Of a stretch of DNA of 64,000 nt, positions 4,696 to 64,000 are shown piece by piece. The DNA is from Providencia rettgeri (GTDB taxonomy: Bacteria > Pseudomonadota > Gammaproteobacteria > Enterobacterales > Enterobacteriaceae), in contig NZ_CP163512.1 of the NCBI RefSeq assembly GCF_041075285.1, positions 744,001 through 808,000 of the forward strand. Direction: 5' to 3'. The notes beneath the pieces were generated by a model, which ran no database searches, was not told where the DNA came from, and saw only the letters and a list, made by a program, of their open reading frames with translations. A program made the position numbers and the translations under genes. Positions within the stretch are counted from its first letter, which is position 1; every line of letters starts with the position of its first letter.

Positions 4696-5526
4696 ATGGA
4701 GAGAATTGAGCGCCACGCCTGTTTTGGCGGTTGGCAGGATGTTTATCAACATCATTCGTCGGTGTTAGGTTGTGATATGAAATTTGCAGCTTACTTACCG
4801 CCGCAAACAAAAACGCAGCCTTGCCCGGTGATTTATTGGCTGTCAGGGTTGACCTGTAACGAGCAAAATTTCATTACGAAAGCGGCGGCTCAGCAATTTG
4901 CCGCAGAGCATGGGGTCGTTCTTATTGCCCCCGATACCAGTCCAAGAGGGGAAGGTGTGGCAGATGATGCTGCCTATGACCTCGGTCAAGGTGCTGGGTT
5001 CTACGTCAATGCGTTGCAAGCGCCATGGAAACGCCATTATCAAATGTACGATTATATCGTTTCAGAGTTGCCAGCGTTAGTGGAAAGCCATTTACCGGTG
5101 ACCGATAAACGGGCAATCTCAGGGCACTCCATGGGGGGGCATGGCGCATTAATGATTGGTTTGCGTAATGCTGAACGCTATTGCAGTTTATCTGCATTTG
5201 CACCGATTATTGCCCCTTCACAAGTACCATGGGGGCAAAAAGCCTTTACTGCATATTTGGGCGATGACCAGGCTCAATGGGCGCAATATGATACAGTTGA
5301 ACTGCTGAGTAAAATTCAAGTGGTGCCGCCAATATTCGTGGATGTTGGCACGGCGGATCCCTTTTACGATGAACAATTAAAACCTGAATTGCTCGCTGAA
5401 ATTAGTGAGCAAAAGCAGTTAGATTGTCAACTGCATTTACGTGAAGGTTATGACCACAGTTACTACTTTATTAGTAGTTTTATTGGCGAACATATTGCCT
5501 TTCACGCACATCATTTAAAACAGTAG
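4696..5526 (+). CDS. frmB: S-formylglutathione hydrolase
   Basis: A 276-aa serine hydrolase of the esterase D family, releasing formate and glutathione after FrmA. The nucleophile motif GHSMGGHGA is near residue 146. The oxyanion region YWLSGLTCNEQNF is near residue 50. The C-terminal GYDHSYYFI carries the catalytic histidine. I start at the ATG at 4696 (preceded by GGGAG), because the longer in-frame start at 4645 lies inside frmA. A terminator follows. Confidence 0.95.
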   Translation: MERIERHACFGGWQDVYQHHSSVLGCDMKFAAYLPPQTKTQPCPVIYWLSGLTCNEQNFITKAAAQQFAAEHGVVLIAPDTSPRGEGVADDAAYDLGQGAGFYVNALQAPWKRHYQMYDYIVSELPALVESHLPVTDKRAISGHSMGGHGALMIGLRNAERYCSLSAFAPIIAPSQVPWGQKAFTAYLGDDQAQWAQYDTVELLSKIQVVPPIFVDVGTADPFYDEQLKPELLAEISEQKQLDCQLHLREGYDHSYYFISSFIGEHIAFHAHHLKQ

Positions 5527-56634: not shown

Positions 56635-58386
56635 TTAGTCCATTTTAAAATTCAGTAGCGCAAACAGCTTATTGCGTTCACTTTCATTGATACATTTTCC
56701 ATTTTTATACAGCTTCGGAAATAACTTCTCCGGGTGGGAAAACGTAGTTTTTATCGTTGGAGTACCATCTTGTCCGACTAGTTGCTTCGCGTATATATAT
56801 TGATGAAGACGTTCAAGAGCAAGGTCTTCGGTTCTAAATATCACTTCGATACCGGCTGTCTCAACAGTAGCCTTAGCCTTTGCTAAGCGATTAAAAGACA
56901 TTATATCAGATAAACAATTCCCGGGTTCAAAATCGTTTTGATAGCCTTTTATTTTTAGCACCCCATTTGCATCTTCACACTCATAAAGCGAGGCAATACA
57001 AATAGTAATAGGCGAATAACCCGGTGGAAGCCCTAATCGTTTACCTTCATTAGCGGCTTCTTCGGCTAATTTAAATCGTATGTCTGCATATTTAGAATGT
57101 TTTGCTCTTAGTTCGGCGAAATATTCAAGAAATTCTAAACTTTTATCATATAGTTGCTCAGCACGTTCAGATTGAGCATAACGCTCATCCATGTAAACAC
57201 TGAGCATTTTCTCTAGAATTTCTGCAGGTTCAACAATATTTTCTTTACCCACAAAATCGACAATTGACTCGTAGTTACCTTTAAATACATCAATTAAATC
57301 ATCTCGACTTAATACATGCTTCTTATCTGTAGCTTTTTCCATCATGGCCAATAAAAATGAGAAACGATAACTTTTAGCAATCAGCCCTCTCAGCTGCCTT
57401 ACACGCTCCTGCAAAACCTTATTTTGACCACTTTCAATTTTTTTGTATTTTTCAATGATCTGAATGGTACAAAGATCCATCAAAACAATTGGCCTTTGGT
57501 TTTTGGGTTGAAGTTTCCGTAATTTTCCCGAATTAAAATAAGCATTAGGAACAACTAATCCATTCTGATTTAATGAAAAAATATGTGTTCGTAGCGAAAT
57601 CTCACCATACCTTTCAAAATCATAGGGTATATTTTCTTGTCGAATATGCTCATTAAGTCGCTGGTCAATGTCCGAAAATTGACCTTCTATTTCGGCATTC
57701 AGCGGGTATGATGAGTGCCAATATCGTTGATACCAGTCACAATCTTGAATTAAATCTGCGGAGCAAGATACATTGAGTAAAAGCGAATTTTCAAAAACGA
57801 AATGACTATTAAAATCGATATCATACCCTATATTCACCAAGGTGTGATACCACTGTAAAATAACAGTGAAAAATGCAACTTTTGACGTTAAGGCTAACTT
57901 GGGTAACTGCAAATCCCAACCTCGATACCAACCACCATTTTCGGCCGCAATTGTCGCTGAAAATGTCCCATTGGCATTTTTACGAAGTCTAAAACGAAGT
58001 TGTTTTGTCGTCAGTTCCCTCAAAAACTGGCTAAAATTCGGGTTAGAAAATGGAATTGCTGAAACGTGCGGTTCCATCGTTTCCGCATAATGTAGTGGAA
58101 ATAACGTCAAAAAGTTAGGATGATCGGCAATCCCCATATTCGATAATACTTGTTGCTGATGCTTTTTCGCCGTGGCCATCATGGTGCTAAATTGAGGATG
58201 ACCTAACGATTTCGCTAAGGCATTTAACGCCTGATTTTTTATTGCAGGATTATGCGAATGTGAACAATTGTCACCATCAAATATTTGAGGCAAAAGAAAA
58301 TCACAAAATGCGTGTGAAATAGGTTTTTGTGAAAGATGAAATGGGTAGACTTCACCATTAATCGGGGTGCGTTCAGAAGTATTCAT
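56635..58386 (-). CDS. Large island protein of unknown function, 583 aa
   Basis: AAAGG precedes the ATG, so it is probably expressed. The N-terminal NALAKSLGHPQFSTMMATA (near 52-70) resembles a short helical motif found in many plasmid and island proteins. In the middle, RPIVLMDLCTIQIIEKYKK near 300 could be the first strand and aspartate of a PIN-like nuclease, with acidic residues later (FLLAMMEKATD, ASLYECEDANG). This domain call is speculative. It lies between IS911 and a nuclease-helicase gene in a defence-rich island. Confidence 0.6.
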   Translation of the reverse strand: MNTSERTPINGEVYPFHLSQKPISHAFCDFLLPQIFDGDNCSHSHNPAIKNQALNALAKSLGHPQFSTMMATAKKHQQQVLSNMGIADHPNFLTLFPLHYAETMEPHVSAIPFSNPNFSQFLRELTTKQLRFRLRKNANGTFSATIAAENGGWYRGWDLQLPKLALTSKVAFFTVILQWYHTLVNIGYDIDFNSHFVFENSLLLNVSCSADLIQDCDWYQRYWHSSYPLNAEIEGQFSDIDQRLNEHIRQENIPYDFERYGEISLRTHIFSLNQNGLVVPNAYFNSGKLRKLQPKNQRPIVLMDLCTIQIIEKYKKIESGQNKVLQERVRQLRGLIAKSYRFSFLLAMMEKATDKKHVLSRDDLIDVFKGNYESIVDFVGKENIVEPAEILEKMLSVYMDERYAQSERAEQLYDKSLEFLEYFAELRAKHSKYADIRFKLAEEAANEGKRLGLPPGYSPITICIASLYECEDANGVLKIKGYQNDFEPGNCLSDIMSFNRLAKAKATVETAGIEVIFRTEDLALERLHQYIYAKQLVGQDGTPTIKTTFSHPEKLFPKLYKNGKCINESERNKLFALLNFKMD

Positions 58387-60909: not shown

Positions 60910-62088
60910 CTACCCAACTAGAGATATCCCCCTTATCCCTCCTTCAATAATACTCCCCCTATCTGCTTCCTCGATAAAATCAGCCCACCATTGCATCATA
61001 GGGCGTCTTTGCTCTAGGTAGTCACTACGGTTATAGGCACGTCTCACTTCGTTTTTATCGACGTGGGCTAGAGCGGCTTCAATCACATCAGGTGGGAAAC
61101 CTTGTTCATTGAGGGCGGTACTAGCAATTGAACGTAGACCGTGTGAGACTAATACACCTCCGAACCCAGCGCGTTTTAATGCAGCATTGACGGTTTGGCT
61201 ATGCATGGGTTGAGTAGGCTTGATACGACTAGGAAAGATAAACTCACGATGACTACTTAATGGTTTCATTAGCTCTAAAATAGCTAAAGCTGCGTCAGAT
61301 AATGGAACAGTGTGCTCACGGTTCATCTTCATTCTAGCGGCCGGTATCTTCCATTCTTTGGTTTCAACGTTGATTTCATTCCAACGGGCTTCAGCGGCTT
61401 CGGCAGGGCGGGATATGGTAAGCAGCTGCCACATAAACAAGCATCGAGTCGATAGGCTAATACTAGCTGTACGCATTGTCTGCATGAGCTTTGGCAGCTG
61501 ATCAGGGGGAATACTTGGCATATTCTTTTTCTTGGGTTTTTCAAAAGCTTTACCAATGTTGATACTTGGTACGGCATCAATTAAGCCAGTATTTTGAGCG
61601 TAGATCATCACTTCGTTGATACGCTGACATAGGCGGCGAACAGTTTCTAGCGCACCTCTAGCTTGAACTGGTTGTATTGCTTGAACCAATATATGCGCTT
61701 TGATATCGGTAACACTAATATCACCAATAGCGGGGAAGACATCTCTTTCAAGTGAACGCCAGATATCATTACCATAATCTTCGGTTACGGTGGACTTCTT
61801 CACTTCCCACCAACGTTCAGCAACTAGTTGAAAGGTATTTGCCTTAGCTTCTAAGGTGTTACGGACTTGCTCTTTATGGTGATCTTGTGGGTCTATCTGC
61901 TTAGCGAGTAGTGTTTTTGCTTCAAGGCGGTAACTACGTGCATCAGCAAGACTGACGGCAGGGTAAGACCCAAGGCTCTTTTTAGCTCGTTTTTTAGTGA
62001 GAGGGCGAATGTAGCGAAATGACCACAACTTGCTGCCATTGTTTTTAGGCACCTCAAAAACTATAAAGGTTAACGAGGTGCCTATCAA
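60910..62088 (-). CDS. P4-type tyrosine integrase, N-terminus altered
   Basis: A 392-aa site-specific recombinase. NGSKLWSFRYIRPLTKKRAKKS belongs to the DUF4102 arm-binding domain, although about 30 usual residues before it are absent. The catalytic arginine is in TISRPAEAAEARW, the HxxR in SHGLRSIAST, then LAHVDKNEVRRAYNRSDY near the C-terminus with the tyrosine. Only a TTG start is available (62088), and the first 14 codons read through AGGTGCCT repeats, so the 5' end may be rearranged. It faces away from the ssrA end at 62209. Confidence 0.82.
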   Translation of the reverse strand: MIGTSLTFIVFEVPKNNGSKLWSFRYIRPLTKKRAKKSLGSYPAVSLADARSYRLEAKTLLAKQIDPQDHHKEQVRNTLEAKANTFQLVAERWWEVKKSTVTEDYGNDIWRSLERDVFPAIGDISVTDIKAHILVQAIQPVQARGALETVRRLCQRINEVMIYAQNTGLIDAVPSINIGKAFEKPKKKNMPSIPPDQLPKLMQTMRTASISLSTRCLFMWQLLTISRPAEAAEARWNEINVETKEWKIPAARMKMNREHTVPLSDAALAILELMKPLSSHREFIFPSRIKPTQPMHSQTVNAALKRAGFGGVLVSHGLRSIASTALNEQGFPPDVIEAALAHVDKNEVRRAYNRSDYLEQRRPMMQWWADFIEEADRGSIIEGGIRGISLVG

Positions 62089-62176: not shown

Positions 62177-62208
62177 CAGTCTTCTTTGGACGTCCTTAGA
62201 AGATAATT

Positions 62209-62241
62209 TGGTGGAGCTGGCGGGAGTTGAACCCGAGTCCG
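62209..62241 (-). other. ssrA: 33-bp copy of the ssrA (tmRNA) 3' end; island attachment site
   Basis: On the minus strand it gives a tmRNA T-arm and acceptor end: GGGTTCAACTCCC and then GCCAGCTCCACCA. Upstream (62242 onward) there is no tmRNA body, so this is a partial copy. Integrases of this class insert at the ssrA 3' end and duplicate it. It marks an att junction between the integrase island and the DNA to the right. Confidence 0.85.
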
Positions 62242-62598: not shown

Positions 62599-62793
62599 AT
62601 GGACTGGGTTACTCACATAGTAAGTTTTATCGTTGGTTTAGGTGCTGGTTGGACATTGCGAATCGCTTTTATCTCTAGAAAAACATCTATAGAGCTTAAA
62701 AGCAATGATGCTAACTATAATGTTAGCCAAACTAAAAATAATGTTACTAATGGTAATATTGTTGGACGTGACCAAAATAACTCCAGTCGTTGA
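62599..62793 (+). CDS. 64-aa single-TM protein with C-terminal amyloid-like motif
   Basis: MDWVTHIVSFIVGLGAGWTL starts an N-terminal membrane helix (about residues 4-25), followed by a basic segment. The C-terminal part (about 39-61) is asparagine/glutamine-rich and ends NVTNGNIVGRDQNN. This matches the N-terminus of the next protein (RVDNGSIVAGDQHN). AAGGA precedes the ATG. It is the first gene of an ABC-3C-type operon. I infer a membrane effector recruited by the shared motif; no family is recognised. Confidence 0.6.
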   Translation: MDWVTHIVSFIVGLGAGWTLRIAFISRKTSIELKSNDANYNVSQTKNNVTNGNIVGRDQNNSSR

Positions 62794-62804
62794 GAGGTTA
62801 GTCG

Positions 62805-63386
62805 GTGTTTACAACTCCTCGAGCACAGATACATACACAACAAACTGGGAATCGTGTTGATAATGGTAGCATTGTTGCAGGTGACCAGCATAACCATATC
62901 TATGGTAACTCTAAGGTTAATAGAGAGTTACTTGAGCTCTACGAGCGCTTGAGAAATGATGATTTTGGTGAGCGTAGCGCTCAATTCAATGAAAAGCTTA
63001 ATCATTATTTCACTGCTCAAAATGAAACGGATGTAAGGGGGTTAGACGCTAAGCTTACTGATAGTAATAGAGAAGATTTGTTGTTTGCCGCAAAGATGTT
63101 TAAGCAGCAAGCAACTATGGCTATTATGAAAAAGCAAACATCCAAATCAGCTCAGAGAATATTCGTAATTCTTCTTGATAGAATATATTTTGATTTTCTA
63201 ATGAAAGTTAACCCATTAATTCATAATGACAGTGATCGTATTACTGTCGATTCAAAAATTACAGAAATAATTGAAACCCTATATGAAACTCTAGGGGAAA
63301 ATCCTCTAGAATTAACACCAACAGATTTGTTGGGTTTATTATTTTTTCTGGGGGGGAATTGTCATATAAGGTGGGATAAATGTTAA
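62805..63386 (+). CDS. ABC-3C-associated protein with N-terminal amyloid-like motif, 193 aa
   Basis: It starts with GTG, with GAGAGG well spaced upstream, 11 bp after the preceding stop. Residues about 17-34 read RVDNGSIVAGDQHNHIYG, the motif shared with the 64-aa protein. The rest is helical and ends GLLFFLGGNCHIRWDKC, in the style of the C-terminal domains of ABC-three-component proteins. It overlaps the start of the MC5-like gene by seven bases. I infer that it couples the effector to the ATPase complex. Confidence 0.65.
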   Translation: MFTTPRAQIHTQQTGNRVDNGSIVAGDQHNHIYGNSKVNRELLELYERLRNDDFGERSAQFNEKLNHYFTAQNETDVRGLDAKLTDSNREDLLFAAKMFKQQATMAIMKKQTSKSAQRIFVILLDRIYFDFLMKVNPLIHNDSDRITVDSKITEIIETLYETLGENPLELTPTDLLGLLFFLGGNCHIRWDKC

Positions 63387-63880
63387 TTTATCATCCTGCG
63401 TTTGACGCATACCATTGTCTTTTCCGAATGATTGCATTGATTGATCATCTAAATACTGCAGAAGTTGATAAAGTAAGAATACTTGATTTTTATATGATTT
63501 TTCCAGCTATGATAGCCAATATAAGAATGCCACCCACACAAAGTGGAGCGAAATCTTTGGCCAGAAAATATAAAAATGAGTATAGGGATCCTATTAACTC
63601 ACTTTCTACCTTTAGAGATATGCATCAAATACAAATGTCAGCTTTGAAATGTCTTGCTGCAACAGGTCTGATAGATTTATCTAAGTTAGAATATGGAGTT
63701 ATAACAAGAACTACTACAGAGATTCCTAATGATTTATTAATCACCATGCAAAGTTTTCTCAATGATAAGGCTGATATAAGCGATTTTATAATTAATGAAC
63801 TTTCTCAGTTTGATTTGACAGGTAAAGATGGGTTAAAGGACCGGACTCAATTAATGGAGTATAGATATGACTTTTCTTAG
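63380..63880 (+). CDS. ABC-3C middle component, MC5-like
   Basis: A 166-aa protein starting MLIYHPAFDAYHCLFRMIAL, the form I know from middle component 5 of ABC-three-component systems. RILDFYMIFPAMIANIRMP and FRDMHQIQMSALKCLAATG are further conserved pieces. Middle components resemble winged-helix (kleisin-partner-like) proteins of SMC complexes. GGTGGG precedes the ATG, and the gene overlaps its neighbours on both sides. Confidence 0.75.
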   Translation: MLIYHPAFDAYHCLFRMIALIDHLNTAEVDKVRILDFYMIFPAMIANIRMPPTQSGAKSLARKYKNEYRDPINSLSTFRDMHQIQMSALKCLAATGLIDLSKLEYGVITRTTTEIPNDLLITMQSFLNDKADISDFIINELSQFDLTGKDGLKDRTQLMEYRYDFS

Positions 63881-64000
63881 TCCAACATTTTGGGTGAGTG
63901 AAATTCGTGTTTTTCAACATGGTCACCAAGCATTTGGTTGTAAGTTTCACAAAGGTGTTAACGTAATAAGAGGTCGCAATAGCTCAGGAAAAACAACAAT
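63867..64000 (+). CDS. ABC-3C ATPase (SMC/Rad50-like), 5' part only
   Basis: The frame starts at 63867, 14 bases inside the preceding gene. It reads MTFLSPTFWVSEIRVF, then VNVIRGRNSSGKTT, a Walker A P-loop of the RecF/SMC kind preceded by the usual first beta-strands. It runs off the window end. It should be the ATPase that completes the three-component system. Confidence 0.75.
   Translation, partial: MTFLSPTFWVSEIRVFQHGHQAFGCKFHKGVNVIRGRNSSGKTT

Follow-up and report, generated by a model that had tools for sequence, protein, structure and literature searches.

In Lamassu systems of the ABC three-component (ABC-3C) superfamily, the N-terminus of LmuA bears an effector and the C-terminus a docking domain, and a substitution of the ATPase Walker B residue to Gln has been described, as set out in the relevant passages of PMC10586767. 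Activation releases LmuA, which then assembles into a homotetramer, according to the sections of PMC12409362 that deal with it. A different layout is found in BASS (Bell-NLR) pairs, in which adjacent genes encode a small membrane-helix effector with a C-terminal motif and an NLR partner whose N-terminus bears the same motif (excerpts of PMC7889193). Here, a four-gene operon is described at the end of a 64,000-nucleotide stretch of Providencia rettgeri, referred to as the window (C1:744001-808000 of the closed 4.35-Mb genome; contig NZ_CP163512.1, assembly GCF_041075285.1). It probably represents a Lamassu (ABC-3C) variant whose membrane effector is encoded apart from the LmuA-like protein, in which a released CTD9 protein would pair through a shared motif with the tail of a small transmembrane (TM) protein, causing the inner membrane to leak and the infection to be aborted.

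The operon comprises, in this order, genes for the TM protein, the CTD9 protein, the MC5 middle component and an SMC/Rad50-type ATPase (Table 1). Spacings of +11, -7 and -14 bp separate successive genes, the tight packing that the initial annotation of this DNA had reported, and reading past position 64000, as it had proposed, yields a complete ATPase of 651 amino acids. A terminator-like hairpin follows the ATPase open reading frame (ORF) at L002 9840-9861, in a scanned region that holds 6 such sites against 2.0 expected in shuffles. The Walker A motif of the ATPase, GRNSSGKT, sits inside the window, and the best PADLOC family is LmuB (E 1.8e-42). The hook CPxC..CxLC is present in all 45 ATPases compared and the Walker A pattern in 40 of them; the Walker B Glu is substituted in every one, the Asp being followed by Gly (41) or Asn (4). 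The 166-residue protein matches Pfam MC5 over the full profile (1-167 of 167, E 9.2e-54), and its predicted fold may resemble that of LmuC chains. The CTD9 domain occupies the C-terminal part of the 193-residue protein, where the docking domain of LmuA has its counterpart, and its predicted fold resembles the LmuA C-terminal domain. No effector domain is fused to the N-terminus of this protein and no second Pfam domain exceeds the cut-off; residues 1-35 are predicted to be disordered (pLDDT about 40). A Foldseek search with CTD9 gave no match at E ≤0.001, and sequence searches of the PDB gave none for the ATPase and MC5 and, for the query A1, two ribosomal chains (E 0.47 and 0.86). The profile matches and predicted folds support the assignment of the three larger genes as the Lamassu subunits LmuB, LmuC and the core of LmuA. 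The initial annotation had likewise proposed an ABC-3C system with an MC5-like component and an SMC/Rad50-like ATPase, and the Pfam MC5 and CTD9 matches, the PADLOC LmuB match, the CxxC hook and, more tentatively for MC5, the predicted folds agree with it; a chance run of ORFs or an unrelated ATPase is ruled out by the Pfam and PADLOC matches. Neither outcome that the annotation had named as refuting it, an unrelated ATPase or an MC5 profile that misses 63380-63880, was seen.

The same four-gene order recurs in distant relatives, as the comparison called for in that annotation revealed, and the operon is therefore not a chance run of ORFs. A total of 62 CTD9 loci was read: the window, 25 genome contigs, 21 viral contigs, 9 chosen plasmid matches and 6 further genomes. 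In 52 of them the locus is split, with an ORF of 50-111 amino acids directly upstream that contains a hydrophobic segment and a C-terminal motif like that of the CTD9 head. In seven others (L037, L062-L065, L069, L070) an alpha/beta-hydrolase is fused to CTD9, as judged by Pfam on L037 and, in the rest, by 94-97% fusion coverage in tblastn and by annotation; the effector is thus swapped among relatives. The remaining three are broken or cut, namely L026 with a frameshifted TM gene (4802-4987), L034 at a contig end, and L081 (2363-2845), whose CTD9 ORF is truncated at the start and which has no TM gene. A broken copy is also seen in L070 (3947-5145), where the hydrolase-CTD9 gene is annotated in two pieces. 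The TM gene, regarded in the initial annotation as an extra, is instead the rule in the CTD9 subfamily and apparently stands in for the effector domain that is lacking. An ORF of the MC5 position and length occurs in 47/47 loci (window, genome and viral contigs; 45 by script, 2 by eye), and an ATPase ORF of >500 amino acids in 45 of these; the two without one, L024 and L034, are close to the ends of their contigs. At E ≤0.001, 225 relatives of the CTD9 protein were recovered, and those among the 120 listed are mostly about 180-200 amino acids long, so members of the CTD9 clade usually have no fused effector. Plasmid matches of the same-type hydrolases also include NB-ARC, AAA-like and tetratricopeptide proteins, which makes the hydrolase an effector common to several sensor types.

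The 64-residue protein has no Pfam family at E ≤1. Lys and Arg residues after the predicted helix outnumber those before it in 49 of the 52 TM proteins, the window's being among the 52, and the tail is accordingly predicted to be cytoplasmic in a C-in single pass. Relatives number 126 at E ≤0.01; none of the 120 listed bears a Pfam domain, and one of these carries, from its source, a rhomboid name that looks unrelated. An accidental ORF is ruled out by this conservation (28 rows and the 126 proteins) together with reciprocal searches. Viral-contig searches with TM proteins returned 12 and 2 confirmed contigs, 14/14 of which had already been found through CTD9. One hydrophobic segment is present in 50 of the 52 upstream ORFs and two segments in the others (L073 1929-2234 and L075 1924-2259, reverse complement); the motif of these two-helix partners still matches the neighbouring CTD9 protein, and the membrane part seems exchangeable. 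The role of effector, which the initial annotation had suggested for the small protein, is supported but not proven: the protein occupies the place of the fused hydrolase effector in relatives, has the predicted C-in topology and shares with CTD9 a motif that co-varies.

This motif, of the type Q..N..GD, lies at the end of the TM protein and in the predicted disordered head of the CTD9 protein. In the window, TM residues 38-61 and CTD9 residues 7-30 are identical at 12 of 24 positions (BLASTP, E 3e-5), which reproduces the BASS-type layout of one motif at the effector C-terminus and at the N-terminus of the adjacent partner. The motif varies among loci and does so alike in both partners, with the TM/CTD9 pairs GDQAGRD/GDQAGRD in L068, KAGGDVVGRDKV/RAGGDVVGRDKI in L074, GDKYV/GDKYV in L075 and RGHMSGRDVNV/HGHMGGRDVNV in L033. 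For the co-variation test, the last 34 TM residues were aligned with the CTD9 protein minus its last 140 residues. Own pairs reach a mean score of 61.2 and cross pairs 39.6 (n=52, z 13.4, permutation p 5e-5). Because many loci are near-duplicates (L013 and L043, for example), sets were thinned to CTD9 domains <80, <60 and <45% identical, in which own and cross pairs score 59.3 and 37.0 (n=29), 60.8 and 35.1 (n=18), and 61.9 and 30.9 (n=9), each at p 5e-5. The own partner scores best in 15/52, 15/29, 11/18 and 9/9 cases for all loci and the three thinned sets, the lower counts arising because close relatives carry nearly the same motif; in the Mantel-test set, the nearest relative's motif outscored the own one in 5/23. 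Once CTD9-domain similarity is removed, the partial Mantel correlation is 0.49-0.55. Three controls (TM N-terminal half against CTD9 head, TM tail against MC5 start, TM tail against CTD9 core) gave no excess at any threshold (z -2.1 to -0.7). L026 was left out of the Mantel and co-variation tests and L034 entered only the Mantel test, while L024 and L068 had no MC5 row in one control. Against the six unbroken hydrolase fusions, no TM tail scores beyond the shuffled-protein range; a frame within the 450 bp that precede L063 scores 44, about the upper end of the shuffled range.

In the mechanism that we consider probable, the LmuB-like ATPase and MC5 would hold the CTD9 protein, an LmuA core devoid of its own effector. 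On sensing of foreign DNA, the CTD9 protein would be released and assemble as reported for LmuA, release and tetramer formation being carried over from other Lamassu systems. The assembly would present several N-terminal motifs at once, and these clustered motifs would pair with the same-type motif on the cytoplasmic TM tail, a binding suggested by the motif matching. The TM proteins would thereby be gathered or templated in the inner membrane, and the leakage expected from such clustering would damage the membrane, end the infection and so stop the phage. The TM protein is the sole visible partner for the CTD9 motifs, and TM clustering with membrane leakage would be the simplest output. A more specific form of this signalling is possible but rather doubtful: the released LmuA-like core may seed the detached membrane protein through an in-register motif, in a homotypic and perhaps amyloid-like manner, as NLRs do in BASS and HET-S. 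With like residues facing like, the effector could be replaced as a plug-in module without a change of sensor. In the aligned motif columns of 18 lineages, 52 are same-charge and 4 opposite-charge, but among unmatched pairs the two classes stand in a similar proportion (648 and 39).

The TM protein could instead serve as a membrane anchor or sensor, its motif tethering CTD9-MC5-LmuB where injected DNA arrives, in the manner of Zorya, Kiwa and SNIPE. Its very small size, single helix and lack of a known toxic domain would suit such a role, and membrane-tethered DNA defence exists, as reported in parts of PMC12904381. Yet relatives without the TM gene carry the fused hydrolase at the same place, which fits effector replacement; the split operons show no other visible effector, and in L073 and L075 the matching motif belongs to another kind of membrane protein, one with two helices, as expected from effector exchange. 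Anchoring is therefore judged unlikely.

Rather than serving in binding, the motif could be a relic of gene fission or duplication whose two copies gene conversion has kept similar. These copies flank the junction between neighbouring genes, and in the window 10 of 11 identical residues share their codon against 6.2 expected. The window is an outlier, however: across 45 loci, 218 of the 488 identical motif residues are encoded by the same codon where 214.2 would be expected, a sharing so near expectation that it argues against gene conversion, which is unsupported overall. The persistence of matching in lineages <45% identical, with flanking parts unmatched in the three controls, makes a relic highly improbable. 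Slightly less credible again is an antitoxin-like or regulatory partner that keeps CTD9 inactive until infection. The TM gene does stand first in the operon and beside CTD9 wherever found (14/14 viral contigs), but the CTD9 protein has no toxic domain to restrain, and known LmuA appears to be restrained by LmuB and LmuC, judging from the portions of PMC10586767 and PMC12409362 on its regulation. Effector replacement by the TM protein remains the preferred interpretation.

The operon lies between a prophage attachment (att) site and the integrase. The whole transfer-messenger RNA (tmRNA, ssrA) gene is located at genome positions 850699-851062 and a 3' fragment at 806209-806299; an ORF beyond the tmRNA is presumably SmpB. 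Six of seven proteins tested between the tmRNA copies match PHROGs for an integrase, a CI-like repressor, a DnaB-like helicase, a tape measure protein, a baseplate wedge and a tail fibre, and these phage genes place the operon on a prophage about 44 kb long, which is not P2-like. Inside this prophage, L002 15180-15263 gives a weak Rfam isrB match (35.4, gathering score 35). On the other side of the att site, the AbiO/Nhi-like gene adjoins both a PRK09692-type integrase and a gene for a 583-residue protein; the AbiO/Nhi-like gene probably belongs to the cargo of another element that occupies this tmRNA site in tandem.

The P2-like relatives are found between gpA and the portal gene, in a region that PMC9122126 describes as a defence hotspot of P2-like phages. 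L039 and L052 have phrog_91 upstream and phrog_68 downstream, L056 has phrog_91 upstream, and E. coli L084 is placed there by annotation; the gpA/portal setting was not seen in L053 and L058. The prevalence of CTD9 and MC5 is low: CTD9 occurs in 3/295 genomes of the order and 6/398 of the phylum (5 over the cut-off), and MC5 in 2/369 of the class, the own genome included each time. A relative of the L039 CTD9 gene is found in 23/5,426 E. coli genomes, and relatives occur in E. coli P2-like prophages. No match was returned by tblastn of the window CTD9 against phages and plasmids, megablast of the window operon against E. coli, or blastn of the L052 operon against phages, and no hydrolase-CTD9 was confirmed in viral contigs.

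Table 1 Coordinates of the operon and of neighbouring features in the window.
Feature	Position	Strand	Basis
64-aa single-TM protein, proposed detached effector	62599..62793	+	ORF; PHROG phrog_17975 (unknown function), E 5.3e-21
Predicted TM helix, about residues 7-23	62617..62667	+	Kyte-Doolittle 17-residue window 1.64 from residue 7; positive residues after helix
Effector-side motif, TM residues 38-61	62710..62781	+	BLASTP to CTD9 head
193-aa CTD9 protein, LmuA-like core without effector domain	62805..63386	+	GTG start; PHROG phrog_13193 (unknown function)
Receptor-side motif, CTD9 residues 7-30, inside predicted disordered head	62823..62894	+	BLASTP
CTD9 domain, residues 79-190	63039..63374	+	Pfam PF20285, E 2.3e-28
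MC5, LmuC-like middle component, 166 aa	63380..63880	+	Pfam PF20291
LmuB-like SMC/Rad50-type ATPase, 5' part	63867..64000	+	runs past window to genome 809822 (L002 9822), 651 aa in total
Prophage left att site, 31-bp exact copy of tmRNA 3' end	62205..62235	-	identity to whole tmRNA gene
PRK09692-type integrase	60910..62088		
AbiO/Nhi-like protein, 497 aa	58930..60423	-	PADLOC AbiO E 1.2e-177, Nhi E 3.4e-172
583-aa protein	56635..58386	-	no family in Pfam (E ≤1), NCBIfam or PADLOC (E ≤0.1)

Lamassu effectors have been described as domains fused to LmuA. A detached, tiny membrane effector coupled by co-varying motifs would account for the exchange of outputs behind a shared SMC sensor, would add membrane effectors to a family known mainly from enzymatic ones, and would connect SMC-based immunity with the homotypic motifs through which NLRs signal. 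A literature search, whose reach excluded the founding ABC-3C paper, the 2025 structure paper and the BASS paper, found no description of an ABC-3C or Lamassu system with a TM or small membrane gene. Among the systems tested, the text of the gpA-gpQ hotspot study mentions none with these four genes; the labels in its Figure 4 legend include SMC and TM, however, and the figure itself may depict one (PMC9122126). Systems of that hotspot share their location with L039, L052 and E. coli L084, whereas the window operon lies between att and int.

In conclusion, the closest likeness is to Lamassu type II/ABC-3C (LmuACB, DdmABC), with which the operon shares an LmuB-like ATPase of about 650 amino acids with a zinc hook, an LmuC-like middle component, an LmuA-like C-terminal domain and a replaced Walker B glutamate. 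It differs in that the LmuA-like protein has no fused effector, its place being taken by a separate membrane protein of 50-111 amino acids with a matching motif, and in that the Walker B residue is Gly or Asn rather than the Gln described in Vibrio Lamassu. The three-gene hydrolase-CTD9 systems (L037, L062-L065, L069) keep CTD9, MC5 and ATPase in the same order, but there a DUF676-type alpha/beta-hydrolase is fused to CTD9, with neither TM gene nor motif. In layout the operon resembles the BASS pairs, except that an LmuA-type protein from an SMC system, with CTD9 as its only Pfam domain, takes the place of the NLR as partner of the membrane protein.
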